A stretch of 49,604 bases of DNA. Origin: Rhodothermia bacterium (GTDB taxonomy: Bacteria; Bacteroidota; Rhodothermia; Rhodothermales; JAAAOL01). The first letter of the stretch is position 1. Each line of letters starts with the position of its first letter. This document shows positions 25,705 through 37,969 of the stretch, one piece after another. The position numbers were made by a program, and so were the translations under genes. The stretch is from positions 1 to 49,604 of the forward strand of contig JAUIDY010000033.1 of NCBI GenBank assembly GCA_030428385.1. Reading direction: 5' to 3'. Under the pieces are notes generated by a model. That model did no database searches. It was not told the origin of the DNA and saw nothing but the letters and a program-made list of their open reading frames with translations.

Positions 25705-27390
25705 TTATTTCGCAAACGACACCGACCGCACCTCTCGAATCACCGTCACCTTGATCTGTCCCGGATACTGCATCTCATCCTGAATCTTTTTGGAGATGTC
25801 GTGGGCCAACTGCTCGGCCTTGGCGTCGGAGACGAGGCTGTGGTTGACCATCACACGGATCTCGCGGCCTGCCTGGATGGCAAACACGCGCTCCACGCCT
25901 TCGAATGACGCTGCCAGCGATTCCAGCTTTTCCAACCGCTTGACGTATGCCTCAAGTGCCTCGCGCCGCGCGCCGGGACGGGCGCCCGAAATGGCATCGG
26001 CGGATTGCACGATGGGGGAGATGAGGGCGGTCATCTCAATCTCATCGTGGTGTGCGCCCACGGCATTACACACGTCGGGGTTTTCTTTGTACTTCTTGCA
26101 CAACTCCATGCCCACAATGGCGTGTGGCTGCTCGATTTCTTCTTCGACGACCTTGCCGATGTCGTGCAGCAGCCCGGCCCGGCGTGCTTCGGCCGGGTCG
26201 AGGCCCAACTCGGCCGCCATGAGCGAGCAGATGCGGGCCGTTTCGATGGAGTGCGACAACAGGTTCTGCCCGTAGCTGGTGCGGTACTTCATGCGCCCGA
26301 TGAGCCGGATCAGCTCCGGGTGTAGCCCGTGCAGGTTCAGGTCGATGACCGTGCGCTCGCCAGTCTCAATCAACTCCTCTTCCATCTCGGAACGGGCTTT
26401 GTCTACCACTTCCTCGATGCGTCCTGGGTGGATGCGTCCGTCCTGGATGAGCCGGGTGAGGGCAATGCGGGCCACCTCGCGACGGACCGGGTCGAAGCCA
26501 GAAAGAATAACCGCCTCGGGCGTATCGTCTACAATCACCTCGATGCCGGTCGCGGCTTCAAACGAGCGGATGTTACGCCCCTCGCGGCCGATGATGCGGC
26601 CCTTCATTTCGTCGGACTGGATATTGACGACCGAGACCGTGTTTTCGATGGCGTGGCTGGCGGCGGTGCGCTGAATGGCGGTCAGGATAATCTTGCGCGC
26701 CTCGCGGTTGGCTGTGAGCTTGGCCTCGTCGCGGATGTCCTTGATGCGCGAGGCGGCTTCGAGCTTGGCCTCATCGATCAACTGCTCCATAAGCTGGTCA
26801 CGGGCTTCGCGCTGCGTCAGGCCGGACACCTGTTCCAGTCGCCGCAGTTGTTCGCCCACCATCTGATCCAGCTTTTCGCGTTTGCCTGCCAGTTCGCGCT
26901 TGAACTGCTCTACCTCGGCCTCGCGCTGCTCGATGTCTTCGCGCCGCGTGGTGGCGTCGTCCAGAAGCGCTTTCGCCCGGGTGCGCAGTTGTTCGGCGTG
27001 GCGGCGGTGTTGTTCGGCTTCTTTTTTGAGCCCTTCAATGGCCTCGGTGGCCTTGTGCAGGAGGTTCTCGCGCTCGTTGACGCGCTGGGTGCGGCGGTTG
27101 AGTTTGCCCTGGCGCTGGTCCAGCTTCTGGCGGGTGCGTTGCAGGCCACGCTTGGTTTCAGCACGTTCCTCGTCAAACGCCTTGCGTTGGCGTTCGAGGT
27201 CCGTGTTCGCTTTTTCGATGTGTTCCGTACGGAACGCGGCGGCTTCTTGCTTGGCCTCGTCGAGGAGGCGGGCAGCGTCTTGCTTGGCCTGGGTCAGCGT
27301 GTGACCACGGCCACGGGCAAGCAGCCATCTATCGACAGCGATTCCTATCGCAAGCGCGACCACGGCAACGATGATCGTTGTGGGATCCAT
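25705..27390 (-). CDS. rny: Ribonuclease Y
   Basis: A membrane-bound endoribonuclease that starts mRNA decay. It has an N-terminal membrane helix ([22 protein letters not shown], about residues 4-25), a long charged coiled coil (about 30-200), and a KH domain ([49 protein letters not shown], about 255-310). An HD metal-dependent domain follows ([38 protein letters not shown], with AHHDEIEM), holding the catalytic His-Asp pair. The C-terminal region includes [18 protein letters not shown]. Length 561 is in range. In this block it follows zapA and a structured RNA, and the RNA's terminator lies about 47 bases before its ATG, so it probably has its own promoter or receives readthrough. Confidence 0.96.
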
Positions 27391-27436: not shown

Positions 27437-27480
27437 AAAATAACAAACGCCCCGATAGCACGCAGGCTACCGGAGCGTTT
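27437..27480 (-). terminator. Rho-independent terminator of the structured RNA
   Basis: On the minus strand a 15-base stem (arms at 27466-27480 and 27445-27459, two G-U or mismatched positions, 6-base loop) is followed by GTTATTTT. Its 5' arm is complementary to CCGGGGCGTTT near the RNA's 5' side, so terminator and closing stem exclude each other. Confidence 0.75.
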
Positions 27481-27730
27481 AATTCCTGTCATCAAGCCGA
27501 GGCGGCCGGGGTTCCTAAGAACCCTTCAGAGCTACACAGTGGGTGCCGCTCAAGCTCTTCCCCCTTCCACTGTTGACTTCCGGCGAGCCGGAAAGCCGTT
27601 GCCGAAGCAACGGTGAGGCCTGGTGTCAGAAGCTTGAAGGAGGGCTCCCTATCGGCATAATTGTAAAGGTTCTTAATTGCCGAAAACGCCCCGGATGGAT
27701 GCAGGATGTCTCTTGCGAGACAGGTAGCCG
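27437..27730 (-). ncRNA. Structured non-coding RNA between zapA block and rny; 6S RNA candidate
   Basis: No protein fits this gap, but the minus strand reads as a densely folded RNA. Hairpins seen in order include TGTCTC-GCAA-GAGACA (GNRA loop) and CGGCAATT-loop-AATTaTGCCG. Then come GTTGC-TTCG-GCAAC (UUCG loop) and TTCCGG-CTCG-CCGGAA. The last two are ACAGTGG...CCACTGT and GGGTTC-TTAG-GAACCC. A strong terminator ends it. The loop AAGAACC can pair with the later GGTTCTT. A long-range pairing CCGGGGCGTTT (27694-27684) with AAACGCTCCGG (27480-27470) would close a 225-nt molecule. zapA-ssrS linkage is well known in E. coli, so 6S RNA is my first candidate. I could not match a 6S, tmRNA, SRP or RNase P consensus by eye. 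Confidence 0.55.
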
Positions 27731-27827
27731 TTACACAGAACACCCAACGGGCAGTTCCGCGTGTGCCGTACGATAGGGTTAGGCAGCGGCTTAATCAAGC
27801 GTTTCTTCACCAAGGTATGAAGAATGC

Positions 27828-27867
27828 GGGGAGTGGGTATGGGAGTGTGGGAGAAAGGGGGAGAGGG
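27828..27867. other. G-quadruplex motif in a polypurine tract
   Basis: Six runs of three or more G separated by 3-5 bases on the + strand (starts at 27828, 27835, 27841, 27849, 27857 and 27865). This satisfies the usual G3+N1-7 pattern. On the minus strand it is a polypyrimidine tract just after the DUF6090 gene stop, upstream of the structured RNA. It may be part of a degenerate GGGAGTGT-like intergenic repeat. Confidence 0.5.
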
Positions 27868-27891
27868 AGAAAGAGGAGGTCGAAGGTTTGA

Positions 27892-28770
27892 TCAGCGGTT
27901 CCGTTCTGCTTCTACTTGTTGGCGGGTACCTTGCACCAACACAAGCAAGCGTCTGTGCAGGGTCTGGAGGACGAGCAGATGGTCTGACATGGCCCGCCAA
28001 TCGCGGAAGGAGGCCGCATCGTTCAGCAGTGCCGCGTAGTCCTCAGCGAACGAAAGCTGGCCGTTCTCCGGTATGGTTTGGGCATGGGATTCGATATACG
28101 CGGTGCCGTTGCGCATCTCCTCAACCGGGAGGAGGGCCAGGTCGGCGTAGAGGTCGGTGGTAGCGGTGCGCTCGCGCAGGCGTACAAGAACGGGGAAGAA
28201 CGCTTCAACCAGGGTCTGTTCGATTCCCTGGACGCGCTGGACGTCATCGACCAGCCGCGAGAGAGCGATCCGCGTTGAGTCGTCGCGGATGAGTTGGAGG
28301 TCACCGGTTTCGATGAGTGCGCTGGCCGTTCCCATCCGATAGGTGGGGAGGCTGATGTACTGGGCCTCGAACAGCCAGCGGGCGAGGGAATCCCGAGGAA
28401 CGGTATCCGGCACGTAGGCGGCACGGATGAGCGCCGACGTGGCATATCGCGTGTTCCCGATACCGTCGATCGCTCCTTGCAGTGAGGTTTCCGTCTCGAT
28501 GAGGTCGCGGCGGATCTCGTTCAGGTAGCTCTGCTCCTTGGCGCGGTCACTGCGCGCTTGCCCCCACGCGGTCACCTGAAAGCCGATTACCACGCCGAGC
28601 ACGACGATGCCGATTTCGAGCACGACGGCGAACCAGTTTTGCGCACGCACCGCCTGCGACAGTCGTGCGAGGATTGTCCATGGACGCTTCGGGCGCGGGG
28701 AGGGTGGTAACGCAGACGATGTGTCGTCGGAGTCTGGTTCGGGCAGCGGTGTGGTTGCAGTGTCGCTCAT
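27892..28770 (-). CDS. DUF6090-like single-pass membrane protein (copy B)
   Basis: A 292-residue protein of unknown function. The N-terminus is Pro/Asp/Ser-rich and cytoplasmic. One membrane helix follows (WFAVVLEIGIVVLGVVIGFQVTAWGQ, about residues 46-71), then a mostly helical domain with the pattern YLNEIRRDLIETETSLQGAI and SALIETGDLQLIRDDSTRIALSRLVDDV. These features match the DUF6090 family common in Bacteroidota and Rhodothermota. It is a diverged paralogue of the gene directly upstream: both have the same WF-AxxxLEI-hydrophobic-A-W helix and a 'tGdLrLIR' motif. Their reading frames overlap by four bases (ATGA), so they are translated as a pair and might form a heteromeric complex. No catalytic motif is seen. 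Confidence 0.72.
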   Translation of the reverse strand: MSDTATTPLPEPDSDDTSSALPPSPRPKRPWTILARLSQAVRAQNWFAVVLEIGIVVLGVVIGFQVTAWGQARSDRAKEQSYLNEIRRDLIETETSLQGAIDGIGNTRYATSALIRAAYVPDTVPRDSLARWLFEAQYISLPTYRMGTASALIETGDLQLIRDDSTRIALSRLVDDVQRVQGIEQTLVEAFFPVLVRLRERTATTDLYADLALLPVEEMRNGTAYIESHAQTIPENGQLSFAEDYAALLNDAASFRDWRAMSDHLLVLQTLHRRLLVLVQGTRQQVEAERNR

Positions 28771-29624
28771 CGGTTTAATTCGGTTTCGACCAGGCGTTGC
28801 AAGTCACGGGTATCCTCTAACTGCTGCTGGGCAAACTCGCGCGCGTAGGCCGCCACCCGCATGCGCTGGAGAAGGATGGCCCGAACGGTATTCCACACCG
28901 GCGCATCAGGCGGCAGGCTCCAGATCGGATCCGGCCCGTCCACATACCCACCCCTTGTCTGCGTTCGAAGAAGGGAATCGGATCGAGCCAGCCGCGTGAC
29001 CCCAGATTGGCTGTCGAAATAGAGGAGTCCCGCCCGAAGTACTTCATGCGCGTACAACGCATCGACAAAGACCGCGTTGTTCTTGTTGTGAATATCCACG
29101 ACGCGTTCGGCCTCTTCGTAGAACGACACCAGTTGGTCGCGGAGCGTCTGGTTTCGAATCAGCCGGAGGTTGCCGGTGTTGATGAGGTCCTCGTATGCCG
29201 GTTGTGTGACATGGATGGTCCGGCGTTCGAGCAAGCTTTCCAGGCCTTTCGAGGCTGCCTCCTGCTCTACTTCCGAGGGGGCCGCCATCGACAGAACGCG
29301 ATAGGCGGTGATCCCGTCTTGGAATTCTTTATCCTCGTAGATTGACAACTCCTCCAGGTTGTTTGCCATCTGGCCGAGGTCGCGGTGGATGAGCGCGAGG
29401 TAGGTCGCCTCGCTTGCTGCATCCTGCCGTCCTTGCCACCACGCATTAATCGCCAGCGCGATGAGCACGCCCGCGACGACGATCAGAATTTCGGCGGCAA
29501 ACCAGCGCAGCTTGGCCTGCCAGTCCCAGTGTTTCAGCAAACGCACCGGCAGAGACGCTGGGGTGAGCGGCGTGTCGTCCGGATCCGGTTCAGAAACCGG
29601 GAGAGATTTGTGGGGCTCAGACAT
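28767..29624 (-). CDS. DUF6090-like single-pass membrane protein (copy A)
   Basis: A 285-residue paralogue of the following gene. Layout: acidic proline-rich cytoplasmic start, a membrane helix (LRWFAAEILIVVAGVLIALAINAWW, about residues 39-63), then a helical region with ATYLALIHRDLGQMANNLEELSIYEDKEFQD and PAYEDLINTGNLRLIRNQTLRDQLVSFYEEAERV. These are the hallmarks of DUF6090. Function is unknown. The pair sits between zapA and the structured RNA/rny, where the conserved order has no such genes, so it looks like a lineage-specific insertion. Base composition is not obviously different from the neighbours. The ATG is 47 bases after zapA's stop, close enough for co-transcription. Confidence 0.72.
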   Translation of the reverse strand: MSEPHKSLPVSEPDPDDTPLTPASLPVRLLKHWDWQAKLRWFAAEILIVVAGVLIALAINAWWQGRQDAASEATYLALIHRDLGQMANNLEELSIYEDKEFQDGITAYRVLSMAAPSEVEQEAASKGLESLLERRTIHVTQPAYEDLINTGNLRLIRNQTLRDQLVSFYEEAERVVDIHNKNNAVFVDALYAHEVLRAGLLYFDSQSGVTRLARSDSLLRTQTRGGYVDGPDPIWSLPPDAPVWNTVRAILLQRMRVAAYAREFAQQQLEDTRDLQRLVETELNR

Positions 29625-29671: not shown

Positions 29672-29956
29672 TTACAACGCGGCTGCCAGCTTGTCGGCCA
29701 GTTCATCCAGCGAGGTGTTGAGTTCACCAAGGGCGTCATTTCCTTCTTCGCGCAGGGCAAACAGTTCCTCCGCCAGGGCAAGGGCGGTGATGACGGCGGC
29801 AGTGAGTTCAGGTTGCTCGGGGTGGGCCTTGCGGAACGACTCGATCTTTTCGTTGACGTAGGCCGCCATGCGCCGGGTCATGAGTTCATCTTCCTCATCG
29901 CCTACAATGAGGGGATAGTCCCGGTTCAGGATGCGGATGCGGATGGATCGTTCCAT
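29672..29956 (-). CDS. zapA: Cell division protein ZapA
   Basis: A 94-residue FtsZ-associated protein that bundles protofilaments at the division ring. The N-terminal beta-hairpin domain is RSIRIRILNRDYPLIVGDEEDELMTRRMAAYVNEKIESFRKAHPE, and a C-terminal helix rich in Ala, Leu and Glu forms the dimer coiled coil. Length and pattern match ZapA (about 90-110 residues). It lies 20 bases after the zapB-like gene and downstream of pheT, a common order in many bacteria. In Proteobacteria the 6S RNA gene follows zapA, which supports the RNA call downstream. Confidence 0.9.
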   Translation of the reverse strand: MERSIRIRILNRDYPLIVGDEEDELMTRRMAAYVNEKIESFRKAHPEQPELTAAVITALALAEELFALREEGNDALGELNTSLDELADKLAAAL

Positions 29957-37895: not shown

Positions 37896-37969
37896 TGGGT
37901 CCTGGCAGATTCGAACTGCCGACCTCTACGATGTCAACGTAGCGCTCTAACCAACTGAGCTAAGGACCC
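37896..37969 (-). tRNA. tRNA-Val (GAC anticodon)
   Basis: On the minus strand a full cloverleaf can be drawn: acceptor GGGTCCT/AGGACCC, D-arm GCTCAGTTGGTTAGAGC, and anticodon stem CTACG/CGTAG around loop TTGACAT (anticodon GAC). The variable loop is AGGTC and the T-arm is GGCAGTTCGAATCTGCC. The discriminator base is A and CCA is not encoded. It lies upstream of thrS and may share its transcript. Confidence 0.95.

Follow-up and report, generated by a model that had tools for sequence, protein, structure and literature searches.

A probable divergent 6S RNA gene between zapA and rny in a Rhodothermales genome, recognised through its relatives

The minus strand of positions 27485-27705 very probably carries the 6S RNA (ssrS) gene of a Rhodothermales genome in a divergent form. 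The window, by which we mean the whole stretch of 49,604 nucleotides analysed, comes from a Rhodothermia bacterium (contig JAUIDY010000033.1, assembly GCA_030428385.1). Since the window's own sequence of this RNA matches no Rfam model, its identity as 6S RNA was shown only through relatives. 6S RNA is a global transcription regulator with which bacteria park RNA polymerase as growth slows down. The first-pass annotation of this gap had favoured a 6S RNA linked to zapA, an idea that was borne out by the alignment of relatives to the Rfam model, the structure of the RNA and its gene neighbourhood.

The gap between the zapA block and rny contains no conserved coding sequence, in agreement with its earlier description as protein-free. 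Its minus strand folds at -131.1 kcal/mol, compared to -101.7 kcal/mol (sd 5.9) for shuffled sequences (z -5.0), and none of the 200 shuffles was as good. The GCAA hairpin (27708-27723), the cUUCGg hairpin and the strong 3' terminator noticed in the first pass were all found, and a CCCCGG...CCGGGG terminator resembling that of the window lies 3' of the RNA in most relatives. The structured RNA that the first-pass annotation had spread over 27437-27730 does exist, but the real RNA is slightly smaller and shifted, with a core at 27517-27674 and, when the closing stem is included, an extent of 27485-27705, both on the minus strand.

The window was searched with Rfam, as had been proposed. At curated thresholds the only match in the whole window was a tRNA at 37896, and no 6S match to the window was seen at either the gathering threshold or E = 10. 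The Rfam 6S model, RF00013, run on the window's own genome alone also gave no match. A plain DNA similarity search in relatives recovered only pieces of the RNA. The locus was also looked for in the order by means of the window's RNase Y and was found in 57 of 114 genomes. A homologous RNA lies upstream of rny in other Rhodothermales, in the same zapA-rny gap, and shares the pattern AAGAACC...GGGAGCC..CUUC..GGAC.NCAGGCC.CA [hairpins] GNGGAAG..GGAAG..GAGCGGCACCCA..UGUG..GGUUCUU.

A covariance model of this RNA, R1, with 153 positions and 27 pairs, was built from 34 sequences. In the window it matches 27518-27673 on the minus strand with 111.3 bits, which is its sole match in the genome. Among 44 Rhodothermales genomes, 39 have a single R1 match, as do 156 of the 394 Bacteroidota genomes sampled, and the named hosts with a match include Rhodothermus sp., Roseithermus sacchariphilus and uncultured Rhodothermales. 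One match per genome, together with the terminator and conserved promoter-like elements, describes a predicted transcription unit of its own, as for a 6S RNA gene. When R1 was run on 4 kb of E. coli, the best match was ssrS in the right register, at a weak score (8.4 bits, E 0.28). Five genomes of one genus of the order (G013, G023, G033, G047 and G054) and one family of the class (f18), all nearly complete, had no R1 match under stricter filters. In such genomes the 6S RNA has either been lost or diverged beyond the reach of R1.

Covariation in relatives, which had been named as a check, was strong over the 27 core pairs. Among 42 Rhodothermales sequences, 95.0% of the cells were paired and 18 of the 27 pairs had changed on both sides. 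The covariation score was 0.488, compared to 0.198 in shuffles (0 of 500 as good), and it collapsed when the partner was slid by one column. In 28 sequences from outside the R1 training set (27 Ignavibacteria or loosely named Bacteroidota assemblies and one other Bacteroidota genome), 94.8% of the cells were paired and 18 pairs showed double changes, again with 0 of 500 shuffles as good. The alignments were fitted to R1 and so favour its structure, but the shuffled and slid versions were derived from these very alignments. The positions of the features are given in Table 1.

Table 1. Features of the predicted 6S RNA gene and its neighbours in the window
Feature	Positions	Strand	Evidence or remark
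zapA, upstream neighbour	29672..29956	-	Pfam ZapA, 57.1 bits
Promoter-like GGAACT-N17-TGTAAC	27730..27758	-	Degenerate copy of GGAACW-N17-TATAAR
Outer closing stem, 5' arm, including CCGGGGCG	27679..27705	-	Duplex with 27485-27508, -32.6 kcal/mol
6S RNA core, P1 to P1	27517..27674	-	R1 match, alignments, covariation
P1 5' strand AAGAACC	27668..27674	-	Pairs with 27517-27523
P2 5' strand GGGAGCC	27643..27649	-	Pairs with 27541-27547; 99.2% of cells paired
P3 5' strand UUCAAGCU	27631..27638	-	Pairs with 27549-27556; double changes in 6 of 8 pairs
P4 (CCNC/GNGG) around two variable hairpins	27567..27618	-	Flanked by conserved AGG/AA internal loop
P3 3' strand AGCUUGAG	27549..27556	-	Covariation
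P2 3' strand GGCACCC	27541..27547	-	Covariation
P1 3' strand GGUUCUU	27517..27523	-	Alignment, covariation
Alternative hairpin GGGUUC-UUAG-GAACCC using P1 3' strand	27509..27524	-	Predicted release hairpin
Outer closing stem, 3' arm, including CGCCUCGG	27485..27508	-	Duplex energy; equivalent stems in relatives
Intrinsic terminator	27444..27481	-	16-pair stem, then TTATTTT
rny (RNase Y), downstream neighbour, outside the RNA gene	25705..27390	-	Pfam RNase_Y_N, KH_1, HD

Inside P1, the core has a central bubble, the elements P2, P3, P3b and P4 and, at its tip, two variable hairpins. The complementarity of AAGAACC and GGTTCTT recognised in the first pass forms the long-range helix P1, with compensatory changes in relatives: all six modelled pairs show double changes and 96.8% of the cells are paired. 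The bubble strands, of about 15-20 nt, are unpaired in the consensus. P4 has the layout seen in the Rfam 6S model, and its pair 63-148 occurs as four pair types through double change. In the outer stem, CCGGGGCG pairs with CGCCUCGG, which lies between P1 and the terminator. Closing stems with unrelated sequences recur outside P1 in relatives; wherever limits could be set to the sequence preceding the terminator, their energies run from -16.7 to -65 kcal/mol. The covariation of P1 to P4 and the recurring outer stem describe a rod with a closing stem, a large central bubble and a terminal arm, as in 6S RNA. In the window, this consensus structure is 5.8 kcal/mol above the minimum-free-energy fold.

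The relatives also connect the RNA to Rfam. RF00013 has matches in six Rhodothermales genomes, all at this same RNA, with 35-46 bits and E-values down to 3.9e-8. None of them passes the gathering score of 46.4 bits, the best reaching 46.3. At five of the six loci rny lies 159-783 nt downstream; the remaining one, L048, sits at the end of a contig, 71 nt after zapA. In the four orthologues inspected the alignments are full length, covering all 187 positions, and the elements follow the order of RF00013: a GAACC/GGUUC helix, the central bubble, a GGG/CCC helix, the long arm, an AAG/AA internal loop and the terminal stem. The proposed Infernal check with Rfam models came out in two parts, with no 6S match to the window at E = 10 and an alignment of RF00013 to its orthologues. 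RF00013 had 12 matches in 38 Bacteroidota genomes, of which 11 coincided with R1 matches; the twelfth (G339, 24.9 bits) was off the R1 match, and a single one (G147, 47.1 bits) was above the gathering score. Only one (L134) of nine Ignavibacteria or Bacteroidota loci was matched by RF00013. The control genome Bacteroides ihuae gave no RF00013 match, as would be expected if this model has a blind spot in the phylum.

The gene neighbourhood points the same way. In E. coli the gene order is zapA-ssrS-fau, and a zapB-zapA-ssrS array has been described for beta- and gamma-proteobacteria (PMC7641849). The zapA-6S order in Rhodothermales is that of E. coli. In most of 69 loci zapA precedes the RNA core by 71-398 nt, and in most loci of Rhodothermales and Ignavibacteria rny is 56-362 nt downstream of the RNA. 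The linkage to zapA is present in the window as well, with two extra genes intervening, and a ZapB-like coiled coil, below the Pfam cut-off, precedes zapA. The zapA-6S-rny synteny was also observed outside the order, in Ignavibacteria and relatives (L066-L092), where eight such loci were searched with RF00013 and gave no match.

The P1 3' strand appears to have a second partner. By thermodynamic prediction, the hairpin at 27509-27524 has a probability of only 0.011 as long as the RNA is free, but of 0.96 once the P1 5' strand is masked in the way a pRNA would mask it. Many relatives use the other flank for this hairpin (e.g., AUAUGAAG-GAGGUU-CUUCAUAU), and the arms are compensatory between relatives: UUUGGAG/CUUCCAA, GUGGAA/UUCCAC, GUCGA/UCGAC and GUGUAA/UUACAC. 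A shuffled-flank test of the hairpin gave a weak signal, with a mean z of -0.85 over 69 sequences and a z of 0.0 for the window. The matched-arm permutation test, for which two controls were null, was cleaner. For type A, the matched arms scored -7.72 compared to -5.88 (sd 0.37) for arms swapped between species (0 of 5000 permutations; 35 dereplicated sequences), and for type B, the type of the window, p was 0.013 after dereplication. These sequence comparisons support a conserved switch in which the P1 3' strand would either pair with the P1 5' strand or refold into the neighbouring hairpin. Prediction and permutation test both suggest the refolding upon pRNA synthesis that is expected of a 6S RNA. 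Such refolding is how polymerase is known to be released from 6S RNA in E. coli and B. subtilis, and the hairpin of the window fits this mechanism. This is more likely the meaning of the "loop-to-hairpin complementarity" of which the first-pass annotation had spoken.

By homology to characterised 6S RNAs, we infer that the RNA is transcribed, binds polymerase, templates pRNAs and releases the enzyme in Rhodothermales. The long outer stem and P1 close the predicted transcript, the central bubble would mimic a melted promoter and the P2-P3-P4 arm follows. During slow growth, the RNA would bind the housekeeping sigmaA-RNA polymerase holoenzyme. Upon recovery, the polymerase would copy the 5' side of the bubble into short pRNAs covering P1, for which the P1 5' strand would be part of the template. 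Once P1 is copied, its freed 3' strand would snap into the neighbouring hairpin, the RNA would loosen and the polymerase would be released. The predicted pRNA start is opposite a U at 27665-27667, placed with the Rfam 6S alignment and the E. coli pRNA start site. The predicted pRNA of the window's species would begin (AA)AGGUUCUU, antisense to the AAGAACC strand.

The first-pass annotation had also considered a cis-regulator of rny and a new RNA class. If it acted in cis on rny, as its leader or attenuator, the RNA would have a closing stem and a terminator that exclude each other. It does lie directly upstream of rny, with its terminator ending 54 nt before that gene. The 5' segment CCGGGGCGUUU (27684-27694) does repeat the 3' arm of the terminator, as had been pointed out, and in the window its duplex with the terminator 5' arm, at -19.0 kcal/mol, exceeds chance (shuffles -11.0, sd 2.2; 0.1% as good). 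However, of the 23 sequences tested, just two (the window and L043) show this complementarity above the ordinary, whereas the outer stem recurs with unrelated sequences. The 5' segment is also already occupied: the outer stem, in which the CCGGGGCGUUU segment pairs with CGCCUCGG, is stronger (-32.6 compared to -19.0 kcal/mol), and CGCCUCGG is transcribed before the terminator. The built-in switch between closing stem and terminator was accordingly rejected, and we take the CCGGGGCGUUU repeat to be a by-product of similar GC-rich stems. Moreover, the zapA-RNA pair is kept at nine loci without rny (L117, L118, L122-L124, L126, L127, L130 and L133). The persistence of the pair where rny is absent argues against an rny leader, and we consider a role of this kind very unlikely.

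If the RNA belonged instead to a new class that had no relation to 6S RNA and lay beside zapA by chance, this would agree with the failure of Rfam to match the window meaningfully, whatever the threshold, and with the pair of variable hairpins in which the arm ends. We find this hardly credible, as RF00013 aligns end to end to the orthologues and matches the same RNA in other Bacteroidota, and as the RNA adjoins zapA in the way E. coli ssrS does. Being single-copy, highly structured and conserved, the RNA could also be imagined as another housekeeping RNA, that is, RNase P RNA, tmRNA or SRP RNA. The RNase P RNA was found elsewhere in the genome (G000:C105, 233 bits), so this identity was rejected, and the tmRNA and SRP models matched nothing in the region with E-values allowed up to 10. 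The probability of this third reading is negligible.

The divergent 6S RNA proposed here shares several traits with known systems. Its orthologues align with RF00013 over 187 positions, closing stem included, and it follows zapA like E. coli ssrS. It differs from RF00013 in that Rhodothermales stay below the gathering threshold throughout and the window itself scores nothing. It differs from E. coli in having rny instead of fau downstream and two hairpins at the tip. In the same phylum as the window, the 6S RNA of Bacteroides thetaiotaomicron has been experimentally detected, along with pRNAs (Ryan et al. 2020, PMC7366714). Another Bacteroidetes RNA to which a 6S function has been ascribed is 6S-Flavo, which came to light because homology searches overlook diverged members (Weinberg et al. 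2010, PMC2864571). The 6S-Flavo model, RF01685, had no match in the 114 genomes of the order or the 38 selected genomes, but it matched none of the controls either, and its failure to match the Rhodothermales RNA is to be read with this in mind.

The RNA is a divergent member of a known family and not a new kind of system, and its recognition usefully corrects the annotation. Across Rhodothermales and much of Bacteroidota, 6S RNA escapes the main public RNA model, and R1 finds it by structure. The zapA-6S neighbourhood of Proteobacteria extends to Rhodothermales and Ignavibacteria, usually with rny next to it, and the release hairpin gains comparative support outside its two usual model organisms. 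No paper joining "6S RNA" with "Rhodothermus" was found; the survey of Wehner et al. 2014, the likeliest place for a listing of such 6S RNAs, lay outside that search.

Several minor observations were made around the gene. The sequence GGAACW-N17(19)-TATAAR is perfect upstream of the 6S RNA at 14 of the 42 Rhodothermales loci, drawn from several families (L023, L024, L026, L028-L033, L035, L038, L043, L044 and L046), and the window has a nearly perfect one. Each genome contains the strict N16-18 pattern 0-2 times, and several genomes have it mainly upstream of 6S RNA; other families have TTGAC-N17-TATA upstream of the RNA. It is conceivable, although we think it rather doubtful, that in several Rhodothermales families 6S RNA is driven by GGAACW-N17-TATAAR through a dedicated sigma factor or activator, with sister families using the ordinary TTGAC-N17-TATA. 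The genes between zapA and the 6S RNA in the window are two overlapping paralogues on the minus strand (27892-28770 and 28767-29624; 32% identity), which had no Pfam or NCBIfam match and were not seen in other loci with zapA beside the RNA. A purine-rich low-complexity tract at 27828-27871 (GGGAGAAAGGGGGAGAGGGAG...) has several copies, 84-93% similar, elsewhere in the genome and in the nearest relative.
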